This document shows, piece by piece, positions 1,237 to 19,893 of a stretch of 39,028 nt of DNA (position 1 is the first letter of the stretch; every line of letters begins with the position of its first letter). This DNA is from a virus: IMG/VR virus record IMGVR_UViG_3300042553_001253, positions 1-39,028 of that record, one strand, 5' to 3'. Under the pieces are notes generated by a model. That model had not been told where the DNA came from. It saw only the letters and a program-made list of their open reading frames with translations, and did not search any database. The position numbers were made by a program, and so were the translations under genes.

Positions 1237-2766
1237 TTAGTACCGCATCTTGGGAAACTCTTTCGGGGCCCTGCTGACAAAGGTCTTATCCGGACCTCTC
1301 TGGTACTCCAGAAACTCTTTCTCGAAGGCAGTGCAGAGAAAGTAATCATCAGCATCTGAGCAGTGTCCGAATCGTTCATAACTGATTTTCGTTTCTGGAT
1401 CTGTCACCTTCTCCTTTTTCTTGGTCCCGTCTGAATCTTCCTTCAGGTAGGTGTAATCGTTGATTCCGTTGACGCAGGATTCGTCAAAGTAGATCTCAAT
1501 GTCCTGGTATGGTTCGCCGGTTGCAGTGCGCTCGTGTATGGTGTTGATCCAGTTCAGGCGCATGACTACCGGCGGAGCCTTGCTTCCGATCTTCAGGACT
1601 GGCTTAAAGCGCTCCAGCTCCCGCATGATGATGGTGAAATCGTTCTGGCCACGCTCGTCACGTGTGTCCTTGGATTTTCCTGCAGGATCGCCACAGATGA
1701 ACAGCCCGGCACCATGGCCAACAGCTTGCAGGTAGGCGGCCAGCAGCTTGGCAGTCTTTGGTGTGGAATTGTCCGGGTTCTTGGGACAGATCTCGTAAAA
1801 GTTGATGGCACGTCGAACGCCTTCCACGTTGTGAATTTGCCAAAGTCGGCAAGTCATGAACGGGTTGACGTTGAAGTCGAATGAGGCGAAAACAGCCAGT
1901 TCCGGATGGTATGGATATCGCCCTACCTGTCGCTGCCGGGACCATTGCTTGTAAGCCTCCCCTCCGGCCTTGCTGAACGGGTTGCCGTAGATCAGCATGT
2001 CCTGCAATCCTTCGTGAAGATTTGCCTTCATGTTGGGAATGTAGGAGGCTGGCAGGTTTTTGACATTGTGGTATGTGGAGCTGATTACCACAAACTTGGG
2101 TCCAATGCGCTTGCTGAAGTAGGTGGTCTCAGAATGGATCTGAGCGTTGATCTCGTCAATAAACTCGTCCAAATGAAACCACTCGTTGATCCAGGGCACT
2201 TTAGCGGGTGACGTGAAGATGTACAGAGGGTTCCATGGCATGTTGCTGGCCCTAAGGCGGCCCAGGATCACCTCTTTGACGGCTGACTCCTTTGTGTCTT
2301 TGGTTTCATCCAGGATGGCCCAGTCAATCTCGATACCATCCAGGGCCTTGTAGTTCTCCAGGGATCCGACATACACCACAGCGCCCCATGCGAAGCTGAT
2401 AATGTTGTTGTAGTCCTTGAACGTGTGATGGCCGATGTTCCAATGCCCTGGAGGAATTCGGCCAATGGTGAAGTGGCCTTCGCCGGTCCGATCGTTGTAC
2501 TCGGTGACACCAAAATCGTCACGCCAGACCTGCATCACCCGGTTCAGGGTTGATCGGTTCAGCTGAGAATGGGTATTGGCTGCAATCAGGCCAGTTGACA
2601 TGGTGTACTGGCTGATGAGGGAGTAAGACACAATACCGGCGCAATGCGTTTTCCCCGATCCCTGACCGGCCATAAACAGGTTGACCGATGCCGAGGAAAA
2701 GATGATATCCTTCTGCGGCTCGGAGCAGGTTTCGATGGGATTGTGAATTTTTAACTCTGCGCTCAT
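1237..2766 (-). CDS. terL: Terminase large subunit
   Basis: ATP-driven motor and nuclease that cuts and packages phage DNA into the prohead through the portal. The 509 residues show the expected order. A Walker A motif lies at residues 33-40 (AGQGSGKT). A Walker B strand reads IDWAILDE near residue 150. A C-terminal RNase H-like nuclease has acidic residues in FASFDFNVNP (about 295), ICGDPAG (about 365) and HCSDADDYF (about 475). It follows the small subunit by 29 bp and precedes the gp36-like connector. Length is normal for the family. The start ATG is the first in frame and directly precedes conserved sequence. Confidence 0.95.
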   Translation of the reverse strand: MSAELKIHNPIETCSEPQKDIIFSSASVNLFMAGQGSGKTHCAGIVSYSLISQYTMSTGLIAANTHSQLNRSTLNRVMQVWRDDFGVTEYNDRTGEGHFTIGRIPPGHWNIGHHTFKDYNNIISFAWGAVVYVGSLENYKALDGIEIDWAILDETKDTKESAVKEVILGRLRASNMPWNPLYIFTSPAKVPWINEWFHLDEFIDEINAQIHSETTYFSKRIGPKFVVISSTYHNVKNLPASYIPNMKANLHEGLQDMLIYGNPFSKAGGEAYKQWSRQRQVGRYPYHPELAVFASFDFNVNPFMTCRLWQIHNVEGVRRAINFYEICPKNPDNSTPKTAKLLAAYLQAVGHGAGLFICGDPAGKSKDTRDERGQNDFTIIMRELERFKPVLKIGSKAPPVVMRLNWINTIHERTATGEPYQDIEIYFDESCVNGINDYTYLKEDSDGTKKKEKVTDPETKISYERFGHCSDADDYFLCTAFEKEFLEYQRGPDKTFVSRAPKEFPKMRY

Positions 2767-2795
2767 AACATTGCGTATAAACTTCGATCTTGGTT

Positions 2796-3443
2796 CTACG
2801 TGTGCTCTTGGTCGGAAACGGGGTCGATCGTCGTGCCTTCTACGGGAATTGTGTGCGTAGAGGAATCCTGAGGCAAGCCGTCTCTGGTCAAATTGATAAC
2901 CACCGGCGGATTGAATGTGATCTGCGCTGCTGGCTTCTGTTCGTTGTCGGCTTTGAAAAAGCCCAGGTGCCGGCCAATGGCTTCCAGAGCTGAGGTTTTC
3001 GAATAGAGTTTGATCTTCACGTTCTTGGTCACTTCCTTGGTTTTCGGATTGGTTGTTTCAATCACCTGCACAGACTCGATGGCTGCGGTCATGTGCTTGG
3101 GCAGCTCATGGAGCTTGTCCAGAGCGATGGTGCCATCCGGATTCAGGAAATCGGTAATGTTGGAAAGCGCGATTGATCTGTACTCCTGGCCCAGTCGATT
3201 AGCGTCAATTCCCACGGAAATAGCCATAGCACTGTCTGCAAGGGCTATTTTAGCCTGCACCTTAGGGAGTCTTAGCAATTTGCTTGCAGTTATTTCCGCG
3301 GAATCTGGAGCATATCCTGCCCGAATGGCGGCCATCTTTCCGTTTCGATCCAGCACGTATTCTCGGCAGAAGATCATCTGCCGGTTGCTCAGGTTCTTCG
3401 AAGTAGACCGAGGCTTGCTCAATTCAGGTCTTTTTTTGGCCAT
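2796..3443 (-). CDS. terS: Terminase small subunit (Terminase_2 type)
   Basis: DNA-recognition subunit that brings terL to the packaging site. Residues 18-80 (LSNRQMIFCREYVLDRNGKMAAIRAGY, then SKLLRLPKVQAKI) form the N-terminal helix-turn-helix typical of the Terminase_2 family: a 'readFv.eYl.d.n.t.Aai.AGY' pattern. The middle (ITDFLNPDGT...LHELP, AIESVQV) matches the oligomerisation region of this family, and SALEAIGRHLGFF is also typical. 215 residues. The start overlaps the stop of the VRR-NUC gene by one base, so the two are probably co-translated. Placement directly before terL supports the call. Confidence 0.9.
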   Translation of the reverse strand: MAKKRPELSKPRSTSKNLSNRQMIFCREYVLDRNGKMAAIRAGYAPDSAEITASKLLRLPKVQAKIALADSAMAISVGIDANRLGQEYRSIALSNITDFLNPDGTIALDKLHELPKHMTAAIESVQVIETTNPKTKEVTKNVKIKLYSKTSALEAIGRHLGFFKADNEQKPAAQITFNPPVVINLTRDGLPQDSSTHTIPVEGTTIDPVSDQEHT

Positions 3444-3928
3444 TACCGGATTTCGTTAGGGTTTAACAGGTGGGACCAGCGGGTGTTTGCAAGATAGTCA
3501 AGAATCAGAGCCTTGAATTGTTCCAAGCTCGTTACCACTTCGCAACGGTAGCCTTCTGATTCCAACAATGCTGCAAGCTCAATCTGTTCAGGAGATGATT
3601 TTCCCTTGGCAGTTTTCATCTCGATGTACAGGCCGCAATCTGCAATCATCATCCGACTTGATCCTGCATATCGGTGAATCGCCAGAAACAAATCGGGAAC
3701 TCCCTTGGTCAGTCCCATGGCCACGTCACGTGTTGCCGTTGCAATGTTCTTCTTTCCGGAATTGTGGTTCATGTAAAGCAGCTTCCGGATGGGTCGAAAT
3801 TTATTCTTAAACCACATGACACATTCCTGCTGAAGCCGGTCTTCGGACCAGTTTTGAGTTGTGCCCGACATTGTGTCGTTGTGCCCGGGTTTGTGCCCGA
3901 CATTTGAAAGTAGTGTAAGGTTCTGCAT
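3443..3928 (-). CDS. VRR-NUC domain nuclease
   Basis: Small PD-(D/E)xK nuclease of the VRR-NUC family, which in phages is thought to act on branched or recombination DNA. The core shows SEDRLQQECVMWF, a helix that opens the domain, then KGVPDLFLA and the acidic strand LYIEMKTAKGKSSPEQ, which carries the E-x-K catalytic pair and the Q-x-x motif. The C-terminus EGYRCEVVTSLEQFKALI is the usual end of the domain. A second ATG at 3871 would remove the first 19 residues. Those residues are encoded by the origin-like iterons, so the shorter form may be the real one. It lies between the primase-helicase and terS on one leftward operon. Confidence 0.88.
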   Translation of the reverse strand: MQNLTLLSNVGHKPGHNDTMSGTTQNWSEDRLQQECVMWFKNKFRPIRKLLYMNHNSGKKNIATATRDVAMGLTKGVPDLFLAIHRYAGSSRMMIADCGLYIEMKTAKGKSSPEQIELAALLESEGYRCEVVTSLEQFKALILDYLANTRWSHLLNPNEIR

Positions 3929-4181
3929 ATCAGTTAATTATGAAGGTTTTTTCAGTTTGTGCCCGACATTTTTTCTACTTCTCTTTTTATACGTCTCTAT
4001 TTGTACTTTTCCTATATTTTTCCCCTATTATTATATTAGTTTATTTATATTTAGTACAACTTCAACAGAAAAGTAGCTTCAAAGGTGGGCACAAGTGTTA
4101 AAATGGGAGCAAATCGTCTGGTTGTGAATTAGTTACAGCGTTTTCAATGTTGGGCACAATGTCGGGCACAATGTCGGGCAC
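3861..4181. other. Candidate replication origin: convergent 12-bp iterons around an A+T-rich core
   Basis: The plus strand carries GTGCCCGACATT at 3861-3872, 3893-3904 and 3959-3970, plus a weaker copy at 3881-3892 (GTGCCCGGGTTT). The opposite orientation occurs at 4081-4092 (10 of 12 matches to the 4146 copy), 4146-4157, 4158-4169 and 4170-4181, the last three in tandem. The two innermost copies directly abut bases 3971-4080, a 110-bp stretch with only 27 G/C by hand count (about 25%). That is far below its surroundings, and it is pyrimidine-rich on the plus strand. Iterons flanking an easily melted core next to a replicative helicase gene is the classic design of an origin. Function is inferred; the repeats themselves are seen directly. 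Confidence 0.68.
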
Positions 4182-5921
4182 AATATTGAAATCCCAGAAC
4201 CTTTGAGCCGTTTGATCGGAGCCCAGTGCCCGGGTTCTGCCCTCGCAAATTGTGTGTCCAGAGTAGTTGGACCAGGCCTCGAGCCACTTCTTCCAACGCT
4301 TCTCTGAGAGGTCTTTTTCGGCCCAACCGGCGAAGGCCAACCACTCTTTGTAGATGTGCTGCTTCGGCACTCTTTTGATGCCATTTTCGAGCAGTATTGG
4401 ATCGAGATACCCTTTCATGAAATCAGGAAAATCAGGAGATGTGAGCTGAATGAGAGCCCTAAGATCGCGATTCAATGAGTGCGGAACAACAAGCCCTTTA
4501 TTCAAGAATTCGAATATGCAGTTATGCATAAACTTATCGAAAGAGCTCCATTCTTCCGGCGTCCAATCAATAAAAAACTGTTTCCCGAACTCGTTGACAG
4601 GCTGCCAGTTGGAGCTGAAGTAGGGACTGATCTCATAGTCGGCTCTGCGTCGAAGCGATGACTGGCCCTGGCCTTGGACAACAAAATTGGTGCTGACCAA
4701 AACCTTGGGTGTTTCGGAGAACTTGGTCATGATTTCTTCTTTTCCCTTTTTTTCGACAGTGAGGCCTTGAGTGAGGGTGACATAAACAAATCCAAGGTCA
4801 AACCACTGGTGCACATCGTCGAAGTTGATGACGGAGTGGTAGTCCTTGTATCGCTGAAAAAGGAAAGACTTGTCAGGCCGAAATACACGGCCATCAATCA
4901 GCAGCGTTTGCCGCATCTGATTCACCATCTGGCCGATCAATGACTTCCCGGTCCCGCCGTTGGGCAGACTGGAGACCTGTTCGTCCATGAGGATCACGGC
5001 TTTGTTGAGACTTGGTGACTTAAAGCGATGCAGCAGGTAGCCGATGGCTGTATGCAAGGCCTCAGCACGCTCATCGTCTTTTCCGGATATGAGGTAAATG
5101 AACTGCTGGGCCATGGAGATGCCTGGAGCCGATTCTGGATAGTAGTCCCGGTCAATGATCTGATCTTGCCACACAAGCCCGGGAAGATCCTTGTGTGTTC
5201 GAAGCTGGGAAGCTCCGGACCTGGTCACTTCTACCCATCCATTTCGGTAAACGAAGTAAGATTCCCGGGCACCATCCCGCAGGATGTTCCTGTCGAGATC
5301 CGGCAGGAATTCGGCCTTGCCCATAGTGAAGAGACCGCGTTCGTTCTTGATCACGGCACGCTGAATGTCCTGGCGCCAGCACGGATCAATAGTGTGGTTC
5401 GGCGGGATGGTGACCTGTACCGGAAGCTTTTGGAGAATGTCAAAAACAATGCCCTTAACCTGGCCCATGTTGCGCCGGTAGATGATGTTGTCGATCACCT
5501 GCACGAGAATGAAGCCCTCATCCACCTCTCCCGGCATGTACCGGCGAAAGCCAAGTCCATGGAGAAATTTTTGCCAGAAACTGAGCTCGTCAACCTGGAG
5601 GGTTTTTTTCGATCCAGTTCCGGCAAAGTAGCAAAAGGATTCACGCCATTCGGGTGTGCCTCCGAGGCGCACATGCTCGATGATGGCGGTCGCCTGGGCC
5701 TCTGTGAGTTTGAACACCATCTTAATGCGAGTGTACACCTCGTCTGGTGCATGACCAGCTGGAAGAAGCTCCCTGACCATGATCTCAGCCGCATCCATGA
5801 TGTTTGGATCTGGCAAAGCTTCGGGGATAACTCCATGCTCCCGGGCCTGGTTAATTCGGTCGGATTCGGCCTTTACTTTATTTTGGCGCTCCTGTTCTTC
5901 AAGTTTCTTTTTATAGTTCAT
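4098..5921 (-). CDS. SF3-type primase-helicase (D5/DUF5906-like)
   Basis: Probable replicative helicase of the phage, 607 residues. The central ATPase has a Walker A (LPNGGTGKSLIGQ), a Walker B (HSVINFDDVHQ) and SF3 motif C (PKVLVSTNFVV) followed by an arginine run (LRRRADYEI). The preceding region (WRQDIQRAVIKNERGLFTMGK ... FVYRNGWVEV) resembles the D5 N-terminal domain. No clear archaeo-eukaryotic primase catalytic site was recognised, so priming may need another protein. The last residues contain IVPDIVPDIVPNI, a protein repeat produced by three tandem 12-bp iterons of the putative origin, so the origin is partly inside this gene. The gene overlaps none of its neighbours and follows the DnaB-N-like gene by 2 bp. 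Confidence 0.85.
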   Translation of the reverse strand: MNYKKKLEEQERQNKVKAESDRINQAREHGVIPEALPDPNIMDAAEIMVRELLPAGHAPDEVYTRIKMVFKLTEAQATAIIEHVRLGGTPEWRESFCYFAGTGSKKTLQVDELSFWQKFLHGLGFRRYMPGEVDEGFILVQVIDNIIYRRNMGQVKGIVFDILQKLPVQVTIPPNHTIDPCWRQDIQRAVIKNERGLFTMGKAEFLPDLDRNILRDGARESYFVYRNGWVEVTRSGASQLRTHKDLPGLVWQDQIIDRDYYPESAPGISMAQQFIYLISGKDDERAEALHTAIGYLLHRFKSPSLNKAVILMDEQVSSLPNGGTGKSLIGQMVNQMRQTLLIDGRVFRPDKSFLFQRYKDYHSVINFDDVHQWFDLGFVYVTLTQGLTVEKKGKEEIMTKFSETPKVLVSTNFVVQGQGQSSLRRRADYEISPYFSSNWQPVNEFGKQFFIDWTPEEWSSFDKFMHNCIFEFLNKGLVVPHSLNRDLRALIQLTSPDFPDFMKGYLDPILLENGIKRVPKQHIYKEWLAFAGWAEKDLSEKRWKKWLEAWSNYSGHTICEGRTRALGSDQTAQRFWDFNIVPDIVPDIVPNIENAVTNSQPDDLLPF

Positions 5922-5923
5922 TT

Positions 5924-6637
5924 TCAGGCCATTACAATGTCAAGAGATGGTTTTTGAACAATAGTGGGATCCTTTTCAATCCATTCGTCCAGTGTGTCAA
6001 TTATTGCGGCCAGCTGGTCGCGATAGGCGGCCAAATCCAAGGGATTGACTGCTGCCATGGTGTTGATGGTGCGGACGGCATCGATGACAGACTTTCGGGT
6101 TTTGAGCTGCGTGACCTTGGCCTGGACGCGATCTTCCACCTGCTGGAAAAGTGCTGCGGTCTTTTGCTCCCCGGCAAGAATGAGCTGCCTTTTGACATCT
6201 TGGACTGCGGAAAAGGTGTCGTTTTCCCAAGATTCCATTTGGGTAATCTGCTGAGTCAGCGGAAGCCCGGAAATGCGAATCTTGTTCAGCCATGAGATGC
6301 AGGTTTCCCGGACGTTCAGCTCTATCAAAAACATGCATCCGGAAAGGATCTGATAGGGCTGGGCAAGGTGCTGAGTGAGATCTTTGGCGCGCCTGGGATC
6401 GGTGATCAGAAGCAAAATGTCGTCGACAGAGGGATACATGTCCGGGCTGGATCCAGACAGGAAAAGAGTGTTGGCTGCCTCGAACTGCTCGACAATTGAT
6501 TTGTAGAGCGGATCCTTGAACATCTGACTGTTGATGTGATCTTTGATGGAGCCATACACCGATGGTTCGACATACAGGTGGCCAACGATCTTGGATTCAA
6601 GGTAGGCACGAAAATCTTTGAGGGAGGTGAATTTCAT
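5924..6637 (-). CDS. DnaB N-terminal-domain-like protein
   Basis: A 237-residue protein whose first about 120 residues resemble the helical N-terminal domain of DnaB-type helicases: YGSIKDHINSQMFKDPLYKSIVEQFEAA, a DnaB-like 'vi..l....F..p.h..Iy..i..l' pattern. It has no Walker A or B motif. It is therefore not a helicase by itself and may be a loader or primase-binding partner of the SF3 helicase encoded 2 bp downstream. The remainder is helical and charged (ALFQQVEDRVQAKVTQLKTRK) and may be coiled. Assignment rests on pattern resemblance and context. Confidence 0.55.
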   Translation of the reverse strand: MKFTSLKDFRAYLESKIVGHLYVEPSVYGSIKDHINSQMFKDPLYKSIVEQFEAANTLFLSGSSPDMYPSVDDILLLITDPRRAKDLTQHLAQPYQILSGCMFLIELNVRETCISWLNKIRISGLPLTQQITQMESWENDTFSAVQDVKRQLILAGEQKTAALFQQVEDRVQAKVTQLKTRKSVIDAVRTINTMAAVNPLDLAAYRDQLAAIIDTLDEWIEKDPTIVQKPSLDIVMA

Positions 6638-6670
6638 GATTACGCTTGCTTTAAAAGTTGAACATTGATT

Positions 6671-7531
6671 TTAATCATGACAGAATCCGGCATTGCACCC
6701 GGCACCGGTACCGTTTAAAAAGTCTAGTTGCATGCCCAGGCGAGAAATCTGCTCCATGTTCATCGATTCTTTGAACGTGCGCTCCGCAAGGTCTTCTTGA
6801 ACCTGGGCCCATCGCATGATAGGGGCGTTGGTTTTAAAGTTTTCCCTCAGCTGTTGTTCTGGTTTCCAGAAGCAGTTCTGGCAGTTGGAATCGGCTGCAA
6901 ACTTGATTTCCGAACCTTCCCAAAACTTCATGATCTGAGGACGCATCACCTTGTCGCGGATTAGTGGAAAAACAGGGGTTTGCCAGTTTTCGAACACTTC
7001 CCAGCGGTGTTTCCAATCGCCAGATTTGTACCTTTCACATCTAACCGGGTATTTGAGAGAGCCTCCAAAAAACCCATCTGCCCGCTCCATTTCATCGTAT
7101 CGATATCCAATGTTGGTTCGAACCGGAAGGCCGGTGTATTTCAGGCACCACTCGAAAATCGGGACGATCTTGAACCAGGTCGTGCACCACCGCTTAATCT
7201 TGTTGGGAATGCACTGCCTCCATCGGATTGCCTGCTCCCAACCAATGCCCCGAACCCAGACTATTTCCTGCCCGATTTTTTGCTCGAGATCGAAAATTGT
7301 TCGAAGTACCTGGGGATCTTCCGAAGTGGCCACAAACTCTGGCCAATGGCTGCAAAATTTTTGCAGCCTATCGTTCACCATTTTTTTGATCGCCTTGTCG
7401 ATGTGGGCCCCGGCATTGTGGCAATCGATGCACACCAATGCAAAGACAATTTGATCAGCAGGATAGTTGGCAGCGATGTAGGCAGAAGTGCGGCCCCCGG
7501 AAATGCTTGTTATGGTGGTGGGTTGGGTCAT
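6671..7531 (-). CDS. PP-loop PAPS-reductase-like protein
   Basis: Member of the adenine nucleotide alpha-hydrolase superfamily related to phosphoadenosine phosphosulfate reductase, 286 residues. The PP-loop is SISGGRTSAYIA at residues 9-20. Cysteine pairs follow: CIDCHN near 34, CIPNKIKRWC near 108-117, CQNC near 222 and GAGCNAGFC at the C-terminus. These could hold an iron-sulfur cluster or carry persulfide. Such genes are common in phages, but their substrate is usually unknown. Options are nucleic-acid thiolation, sulfur metabolism or counter-defence. Its start overlaps the stop of the upstream gene as ATGA, so it is translationally coupled. Family call is firm, reaction unknown. Confidence 0.82.
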   Translation of the reverse strand: MTQPTTITSISGGRTSAYIAANYPADQIVFALVCIDCHNAGAHIDKAIKKMVNDRLQKFCSHWPEFVATSEDPQVLRTIFDLEQKIGQEIVWVRGIGWEQAIRWRQCIPNKIKRWCTTWFKIVPIFEWCLKYTGLPVRTNIGYRYDEMERADGFFGGSLKYPVRCERYKSGDWKHRWEVFENWQTPVFPLIRDKVMRPQIMKFWEGSEIKFAADSNCQNCFWKPEQQLRENFKTNAPIMRWAQVQEDLAERTFKESMNMEQISRLGMQLDFLNGTGAGCNAGFCHD

Positions 7532-13419: not shown

Positions 13420-13629
13420 TTATGCAGTTTTTTCCTGAAAATTTTTCCGGGCTTCAGCAAGCGTGTCTCTGAGATCCTTCAGATCCTTCATGAATTCGTA
13501 ATCCCTTAAGCTGGAAGGATTTACCATGCCAGCACTCAATCGAGAGGCCTTCACATAGTTCAATTCATGTTTCTCCGAAAGCCTCTGAAGTTCCCCCTTT
13601 GGGAGTTTTTCTTTTGTCGTTGTATGCAT
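13420..13629 (-). CDS. Cro-like small protein, first gene of the leftward operon
   Basis: 69 residues from ATG 13629. An in-frame extension to 13686 would cross the promoter and is not used. Residues 11-35 (KGELQRLSEKHELNYVKASRLSAGM) can form a helix-turn-helix, followed by a helical, charged tail suited to dimerisation. Being the first gene of the lytic-side transcript, opposite the repressor, it occupies the Cro position. The leftward promoter -7 box lies 27 bp upstream, giving a leader of about 20 nt. DNA binding is inferred from position and predicted fold. Confidence 0.55.
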   Translation of the reverse strand: MHTTTKEKLPKGELQRLSEKHELNYVKASRLSAGMVNPSSLRDYEFMKDLKDLRDTLAEARKNFQEKTA

Positions 13630-13643
13630 TTCGTATATCTTTG
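13612..13643 (+). promoter_or_regulatory. Rightward (lysogenic) promoter for repressor-integrase
   Basis: TTTTG at 13612-13616, 19 bp, then TATCTTTG at 13636-13643 match the Bacteroidota primary-sigma pattern TTG-N19-21-TAnnTTTG. Transcription would start near 13650 and read the repressor and integrase. The -33 box lies inside the Cro-like gene's 5' end, so leftward transcription passes through it. Confidence 0.62.
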
Positions 13644-13655
13644 ATTGACTTAGTG

Positions 13656-13688
13656 CAAATGTATATGACCAAATGGAATAATTCAAAA
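13656..13688 (-). promoter_or_regulatory. Leftward (lytic, early) promoter facing the lysogenic promoter
   Basis: On the minus strand TTTTG (13688-13684), 20 bp, then TACATTTG (13663-13656) match the Bacteroidota promoter pattern. The start would be near 13649, next to the rightward start, and the -7 boxes are 12 bp apart. The two promoters face each other and each transcript runs across the other's -33 box. The arrangement recalls the face-to-face Pe/Pc pair of phage P2. Direct repeats TGCA-N-GTATAT at 13625-13638 and 13654-13666 could be operator half-sites. Confidence 0.65.
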
Positions 13689-13721
13689 GAAATATTCCAG
13701 AAACGCATAAAATATTTTACA

Positions 13722-14663
13722 ATGCCACCTAACACAAGGCTCAGAGAGATTCGATCTAAGAATAAGATGAATCAAAGTGACTTTGCCAACCTGCTCGGGT
13801 TGACTCAATCGAGTTTATCGAAGTACGAGAATGGGTTGGCTGATGCGGCCAACGTCGCTCAGGTTTTGGCGGAAAAGTTGTCTATCAACCCAACCTGGTA
13901 CCTTACAGGCCAGGGCACTATGTACATTGAGTCAAATGACAGGCCGATGATTGCTGGTGAATCAATTACACCCTACATCGTGGTTTCTGTTCAGAAATCA
14001 ACCGGTTTTGCAGAGCGCTTAAAAACGGCCAGAAAAGCCCTTGGATATAACCAAGAGGAAGCCGCCAAGCTCTGTGGAATTGCCCGAATGACATTCAGTA
14101 GATATGAAAAAGGGGAAACTACCCCTGGAATAATATTTCAAAAATCCATTGCAGCTTCTCTTAATGTAGACCCTGAATGGCTGATGACCGGCGAAGGCAT
14201 TCCGCCAAGAGGCAATGGAATAATGGCACCCGTTTCTAATTATCAATTCACCCAGCTTCCCATGCTTACCTACGCAGCTGCTGCCACGTTTGACGCCCTT
14301 AAGTTTTTTGAAAATGACTCAGAATACATGGGCAGTGGTTACACCGTCCTGAAGCAGCCAGGATATGACTACAAAAATGCCGTCGTCATCAACATCGAAG
14401 GCAATTCCATGGAGCCCAAGTTCCCATCTGGATCTAAGATTGTGGCAGTTCCTATGCCAGAGAACCAGTGGGAATATGCTTCAGGATACATTGCCATCAG
14501 TTTGAAGGCCGAAGTATTTATGTTTAAAAGAGTCAAGTCGGCAGGGCCGAAGTCTATTGTGTTGATCAGCGAAAATCCACAATTTCCGGAAGAAAGGGAG
14601 GTGGCTCTTGATTCGATCAACATCATGTGGAAGGTGCTGCACCTGGTCTATGCTCCGATATGA
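13722..14663 (+). CDS. Phage repressor with two HTH domains and an S24 peptidase domain
   Basis: Master repressor that keeps the prophage silent. Residues 5-65 are a first HTH_XRE domain (LREIRSKNKMNQSDFANLLGLTQSSLSKYE). Residues 95-160 are a second, separate one (ERLKTARKALGYNQEEAAKLCGIARMTFSRYEKGE). Residues about 215-310 are an S24/LexA-like domain with Ser229 in EGNSMEPKFPSG and Lys269 in FMFKRVK. These residues are compatible with RecA-induced self-cleavage; no obvious Ala-Gly cleavage site was found, and AAAA at 185-188 is the nearest. Two HTH domains in one chain are unusual. The start used is ATG 13722 (MPPNTRL); ATG 13665 would add 19 residues encoded in the promoter region. Its stop overlaps the integrase start as ATGA. 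Confidence 0.88.
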   Translation: MPPNTRLREIRSKNKMNQSDFANLLGLTQSSLSKYENGLADAANVAQVLAEKLSINPTWYLTGQGTMYIESNDRPMIAGESITPYIVVSVQKSTGFAERLKTARKALGYNQEEAAKLCGIARMTFSRYEKGETTPGIIFQKSIAASLNVDPEWLMTGEGIPPRGNGIMAPVSNYQFTQLPMLTYAAAATFDALKFFENDSEYMGSGYTVLKQPGYDYKNAVVINIEGNSMEPKFPSGSKIVAVPMPENQWEYASGYIAISLKAEVFMFKRVKSAGPKSIVLISENPQFPEEREVALDSINIMWKVLHLVYAPI

Positions 14664-19585: not shown

Positions 19586-19893
19586 TACGATACAATAAAT
19601 GGGTTGTTGACGCCTGATGCTGATCCGTTGGTGATCTGCATGTATCCAATTCCTCCAGGGCTGTACTGGGATGGAATTGGACCAGTGGAAATGATTGTGC
19701 CCCGATCTTGGAAATAGTTGGCAATCTGGTTGTCAGTGGCATCAATTAAAAGTGTTTGACCAGCCTGAAGAATGGAAGAAATCCCGGCCAGCCCATTGGC
19801 CACAATTAGGTCCATGACCTTACCGGCGTCACCATACAGCTGAATGGTGAAGTCAAGAATGGTTTGGTTTTCCCGGACCTGGACTTGTTGCAT
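19585..19893 (-). CDS. Tail protein X-like, LysM-type
   Basis: 102 residues. The first about 50 residues (VRENQTILDFTIQLYGDAGKVMDLIVANGLAG ... ILQAGQTLLI) have the LysM-like form of phage tail protein X. P2 gpX is a small LysM protein at the tail tip, possibly binding the hub or peptidoglycan. The C-terminal half is low-complexity and Gly/Ser/Asn-rich. It overlaps the downstream J gene and the upstream small membrane gene by single bases. Confidence 0.78.
   Translation of the reverse strand: MQQVQVRENQTILDFTIQLYGDAGKVMDLIVANGLAGISSILQAGQTLLIDATDNQIANYFQDRGTIISTGPIPSQYSPGGIGYMQITNGSASGVNNPFIVS

Follow-up and report, generated by a model that had tools for sequence, protein, structure and literature searches.

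A probable replication origin with inward-facing iterons at the end of a D5-type helicase gene in a temperate tailed phage

Results

Iteron array and A+T-rich core beside the helicase gene

We analyzed a viral DNA of 39,028 nucleotides (IMG/VR record IMGVR_UViG_3300042553_001253; this whole stretch is referred to as the window), in which an array of short repeats, or iterons, surrounds an A+T-rich core at the 3′ end of a gene for a D5-type helicase. The array spans the helicase 3′ end, the intergenic gap and the start of the open reading frame (ORF) of a nuclease, beginning about 85 bp before the helicase stop and finishing about 240 bp past it. An earlier note had proposed a probable replication origin here, and the analysis below supports that proposal, with the array conserved beside the helicase gene in relatives and the predicted winged helix of the helicase covarying with the iteron word. 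The features of the locus are as follows.

3443..3928, minus strand: VRR-NUC nuclease (PF08774, 5.3e-07); its N-terminal codons hold iterons 1-3
3859..3872, plus strand: iteron 1, TTGTGCCCGACATT; overlaps a possible in-frame ATG of the nuclease gene
3879..3892, plus strand: iteron 2, weaker, TTGTGCCCGGGTTT
3891..3904, plus strand: iteron 3, TTGTGCCCGACATT
3957..3970, plus strand: iteron 4, TTGTGCCCGACATT; abuts the A+T-rich core
3971..4080, no strand: A+T-rich core, presumed melting site; 24.5% G+C; dyad TTGTACT / AGTACAA at about 4001-4061
4081..4094, minus strand: iteron 5, weaker, TTGTGCCCACCTTT; abuts the core; its offset matches GTGTCCACCTTT in the relatives L122 and L123
4146..4159, minus strand: iteron 6, TTGTGCCCAACATT; its 12-mer codes for VPNI
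4158..4171, minus strand: iteron 7, TTGTGCCCGACATT; its 12-mer codes for VPDI
4170..4183, minus strand: iteron 8, TTGTGCCCGACATT; its 12-mer codes for VPDI
4098..5921, minus strand: D5-type helicase, 607 amino acids, presumed initiator; predicted winged helix at about residues 514-578, predicted disordered tail 580-607, tip DDLLPF

Eight sites with the common 8-mer TTGTGCCC lie at 3859-4183, four in plus and four in minus orientation, and face inward. Exact copies of the 12-mer GTGCCCGACATT make up five of the eight (3861-3872, 3893-3904 and 3959-3970 on the plus strand; 4158-4169 and 4170-4181 on the minus strand), one copy has a single mismatch (4146-4157, minus) and two have three mismatches (3881-3892, plus, GTGCCCGGGTTT; 4081-4092, minus, GTGCCCACCTTT), in agreement with the at least six good and two weaker repeats, plus on the left and minus on the right, that had been described. 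Because TTGTGCCC is common to all eight sites, the iteron unit is taken to be about 14 bp, TTGTGCCC(G/A)AC(A/C)TT. Elsewhere in the window TTGTGCCC occurs once, at 19695. The array is not random, as the most frequent 8-mer reached at most four copies in 2000 dinucleotide-preserving shuffles of 3845-4200, compared with the eight observed. The innermost iterons abut the core exactly on both sides, and its G+C content agrees with the roughly 25% given previously; the lowest G+C content of any 110 bp in the whole window, 22.7%, starts at 3966. Single-strand folding of the core was close to that of shuffles (z -0.46).

The three tandem minus iterons that had been noticed in the helicase coding sequence were confirmed to be in frame, encoding VPDI-VPDI-VPNI at residues 581-592, and three of the four plus iterons lie inside the start of the nuclease ORF (start taken as 3928). 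An Rfam search gave no match. Matches to the exact 14-mer occur in 118 viral stretches, and those listed were one scattered copy each and never an array, consistent with the earlier statement that an origin with this iteron is not known to have been described.

Conservation in close relatives

The position and geometry of the array are conserved in three close relatives, L122, L123 and L127, the helicases of which are 55%, 52-53% and 47% identical to that of the window, respectively. Measured from the helicase stop, the window 12-mers lie at -83, -71, -59 and +6 in one orientation and at 128, 194, 206 and 226 in the other, and L122 and L123 also have eight sites in an inward 4+4 arrangement, at -83, -70, -61 and +6 and at 125, 189, 201 and 221. 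Their word is GTGTCCA[GC]C[AT]TT in place of the GTGCCCGACATT of the window, with one or two in-gene copies being degenerate. A third word was found in L127, GGGCATACATTG or near copies of it at -103, -82, -70, +8 and 195, so that the location is as in the window with only five recognized sites. Thus, the recurrence of the repeats in relatives, which the earlier note had made a check of its proposal, holds for their place and, in L122 and L123, for the full inward arrangement, but not for the word itself. The core (1010-1116 in L122, 1120-1226 in L123 and 6760-6860 in L127) has the dyad TTGTACT/AGTACAA in common in the window, L122 and L123, and less exactly in L127; its single-strand folding exceeds that of shuffles in L122, L123 and L127 (z -2.6 to -3.8).

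Association with the helicase gene across the wider family

A single helicase sequence as the query found no relative, and the wider family was retrieved by alignment-based searches. For 77 loci, we took a 400-bp stretch from 100 bp ahead of the helicase stop onward and scored its most frequent 10-mer, with up to one mismatch and on either strand, against other windows of the same loci as background. At least four copies of a 10-mer were present in 56 of the 77 helicase-stop windows (73%) and in 93 of 3315 other windows (2.8%), an enrichment of approximate size because the background is mostly coding and not composition-matched. Clustering at 70% identity gave 18 clusters, of which 10 had a median of at least four copies, and clustering at 90% gave 33, of which 16 did. 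The iteron words are diverse, as exemplified by TACGCGATTT, TTAACATCAT, TGTACTCGAT and TGTAATCGAT. In loci with at least five copies, the widest gap between opposed copies measures 66-133 bp in most cases and 38 bp in L204, and its G+C content is 16-33%, compared with 34-48% for the locus. No clear array was seen in BT-TP2, Leef_1 and MW202828, which are close phage records with more distant helicases.

The gene after the array differs between family branches, with the array staying beside the helicase gene, and VRR-NUC homologues that are not beside a helicase of this family had no array within 1 kb upstream (L212 in this comparison is L127 again). The array therefore goes with the helicase. 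In L140, L143, L153 and L154, the product of the next gene begins MLTKENLLSV and presumably resembles the C-terminal domain of DnaA. Separately, tandem arrays that have no relation to the iterons were seen in L144, L147 and L209 about 1.0-1.5 kb past the helicase stop; their period is 29 bp, and a 9-mer recurs in them 11 to 14 times.

The helicase as the presumed initiator

A Pfam search with the 607-amino-acid helicase itself gave nothing significant. Its relatives match DUF5906, and three of the distant ones scanned (L134, L160 and L167) carry an N-terminal Prim-Pol domain (PF09250), which is unmatched by Pfam in the window helicase; the proteins of the window (4098-5921) and L127 (4917-6740) are about 225 amino acids shorter and do not have this domain. 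Thus, the gene, which had been called a primase-helicase, encodes a D5-type helicase as far as the second part of that name goes, but lacks the N-terminal Prim-Pol domain. In an AlphaFold2 model built on 34 family members (mean predicted local distance difference test score 78.9; predicted template modeling score 0.67), a helicase core is followed by C-terminal helices at 520-531 and 540-554 and strands at 556-565 and 568-577, a unit that we read as a winged helix. The tail from residue 580 is of low confidence and predicted to be disordered. The in-gene iterons lie in this tail, and amino-acid constraint there should therefore be low. Foldseek and VIA-align both placed the primase-helicase of SaPI5, a Staphylococcus aureus pathogenicity island (SaPI), first among Protein Data Bank matches (E 1.8e-10; VIA Z 21.0 across 390 residues of the model, at 90-570). 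D5-type, PrimPol and NrS-1 structures came next, and all of these are matches in fold, with sequence identities of about 7-15%.

The helicases end in DDLLPF (window, 4098-4118), DDDLPF (L122), EDDLPF (L123) and DNELPF (L127), and this tip resembles DDDIPF, the C-terminal motif of the single-stranded DNA-binding protein (SSB) (PMC5872125). The SSB tip recruits replication proteins. Among the other window ORFs of at least 60 amino acids, none had the SSB-like tip pattern searched.

Covariation of the winged helix with the iteron word

The relation between the helicase and the iteron word was evaluated in 42 non-redundant family members, using pairs whose helicase segments share at least 95% identity and allowing both iteron orientations. 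Winged-helix identity was 97.1% in pairs with the same iteron (n = 57) and 73.8% in pairs with different iterons (n = 20), whereas five control segments of 65 residues shifted by about 5 points or less. The drop is limited to about the last 80 residues, as in L181/L199, where identity is 100% and then 50-61%. The winged helix is fast-changing in general, and same-iteron pairs at similar helicase identity show no drop. The C-terminal winged helix of the helicase is thus the likely reader of the iterons, and not the DnaB-N-like protein that had been named beside it as a candidate. The latter is a 237-amino-acid product of the gene directly upstream of the helicase gene (5924-6637), with a counterpart 27% identical in L127 (4223-4972); its DnaB_N match is sub-threshold (E 0.027) and its predicted structure, with a score of 43.7 on the same local measure, is uninterpretable.

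Neighboring genes and the nature of the phage

The other features that bear on the interpretation are the following.

2796-3443: TerS, downstream of the nuclease gene
1237-2766: TerL, after TerS
13599-14663: CI-like repressor

The remaining genes include those for an integrase and for RecT-like, Gam-like and portal-like proteins, a head protease, tail sheath, tape measure and baseplate hub, and the phage is temperate and contractile-tailed by gene content. Satellites of the phage-inducible chromosomal island (PICI) kind depend on helper virion genes; the window encodes its own TerL and virion genes. No DNA-level match to 2500-6800 was found in phage records, and GTDB genomes, scanned twice, yielded no relative.

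Discussion

Taken together, the array is very probably a replication origin organized as in SaPI/PICI elements, here in a temperate tailed phage. The D5-type helicase (4098-5921) would use its C-terminal winged helix to bind the TTGTGCCC(G/A)ACATT iterons, and the four inward sites per side would seat one helicase assembly on each flank of 3971-4080. The core would then melt, the helicases would load and the forks would depart, presumably bidirectionally. Autoregulation on top of origin function is possible.

Several observations weigh against an origin at this locus or against its recognition by the winged helix. The sequence identity to SaPI5 Rep is just 13-15%. The cumulative GC skew, proposed earlier as a check, does not turn at 4 kb and is uninformative. 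About 27% of the family loci are without an array by the 10-mer criterion, and L162-L164, L184, L200 and L207 are no better than chance; in addition, intergenic composition could explain part of the family enrichment, with shuffles covering the window only. As for covariation, the pairs share ancestry, with an estimated five or six independent switches, and it was measured in distant relatives because the clade of the window has too few members. When all distances were used, a partial Mantel test was significant, with control segment 120-184 giving a similar r, and it was not used as evidence because it is not specific to the winged helix.

Other functions of the repeats were also considered. 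The gap lies directly upstream of the same-strand nuclease, TerS and TerL genes, which makes a promoter in it plausible, and the window also has a gene for a CI-like repressor (13599-14663); the repeats might thus be an operator array through which a phage regulator, or the helicase repressing itself, controls the nuclease-terminase operon. This is improbable, since the repressor/integrase region has no copy, the sole other TTGTGCCC being at 19695, the array stays by the helicase gene while the next gene varies between branches, and, in relatives, the helicase winged helix covaries with the word. A scan for sigma-70-type promoters and for terminators found none. We regard as quite improbable a packaging site (pac/cos) with repeats read by the small terminase: the TerS gene ends some 420 bp away from the closest repeat and TerL is near, with the nuclease gene between, but in distant relatives the array comes after the helicase gene and is followed by other genes, and covariation is with the helicase winged helix. 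Furthermore, inward sets of four around the most A+T-rich 110 bp better match an origin.

It is hardly credible that the array reflects peptide repeats in the helicase tail and at the nuclease N-terminus, with the DNA likeness a by-product of coding. The VPDI repeats are in frame and three more copies fall within the nuclease ORF, but these are opposite in orientation and encode NVGH and KPGH, two copies that abut the core are non-coding, the relatives hold the site positions yet encode different peptides, and the helicase tail is predicted to be disordered. VPDI as a peptide feature was rejected, as the non-coding copies largely refute such a reading.

The SaPI/PICI origin layout and the D5 fold are already known, and what is new here is their occurrence in a tailed phage that is temperate and carries its own virion genes. 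It is also unusual that three iterons encode the tail of the helicase, predicted to be disordered, before an SSB-like tip, and that three encode the nuclease N-terminus. More broadly, we see an about even chance that SaPI/PICI-type origins are a general, undescribed class among tailed phages with D5 helicases, in which the winged helix and iterons switch as a unit and alter replicon specificity between near-identical phages, with the origin of this branch also dictating codons in both neighboring genes and using the disordered helicase tail before the SSB-like tip. The layout in a phage family suggests either the source from which satellites obtained it or its commonness among D5-type initiators. 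Near-identical helicases that differ in winged helix and iteron are ready material on how initiator specificity changes, and this pairing may decide which co-infecting replicons can share initiators.

Comparison with known systems

Parts of the proposed arrangement are found in other replicons. The alpha protein of phage P4 is a primase, helicase and origin-binding protein with iterons, and P4 needs two separate sites, ori and crr. The lambda O protein is an initiator but not itself a helicase. The iterons of lambda lie within the O coding sequence beside an A+T-rich tract (PMC7466680), and three of the window iterons are likewise inside the coding sequence of the presumed initiator. In pRN1, the initiator ORF904 combines primase, superfamily 3 helicase and winged helix, and the origin is downstream of its gene (PMC4234260). 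The foldable dyad in the cores of L122, L123 and L127 may be a likeness to it; however, pRN1 has a 100-nt stem-loop and no recognized iterons, and the window core folds no better than shuffles.

Cch2 of the staphylococcal cassette chromosome mec (SCCmec), a helicase of the Primase_Cterm/D5 kind, binds direct repeats just downstream of its own gene (PMC7581432). Binding has been demonstrated there, to three short direct iterons, whereas the window has inward sets of four and four read from sequence. The closest likeness is to SaPI and PICI elements. PICI origins have two iteron sets around an A+T-rich region immediately 3′ of the initiator gene, an organization shared by no other known bacterial replicon according to a 2018 paper (PMC6092414), and the SaPI Rep recognizes, by its C-terminal domain, iterons directly downstream of its own gene, with binding as two hexamers being suggested (PMC7581432). 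The window differs from these elements in being a tailed temperate phage that encodes virion genes of its own, in having a helicase without a Prim-Pol domain, in iterons that reach into both flanking genes and in an origin that is predicted from sequence. It resembles SaPIbov1, SaPI5 and EcCICFT073 in having two iteron sets and an A+T-rich core 3′ of the initiator gene, and, by the predicted fold, it resembles SaPI5 Rep in having an initiator helicase with a C-terminal DNA-binding domain.
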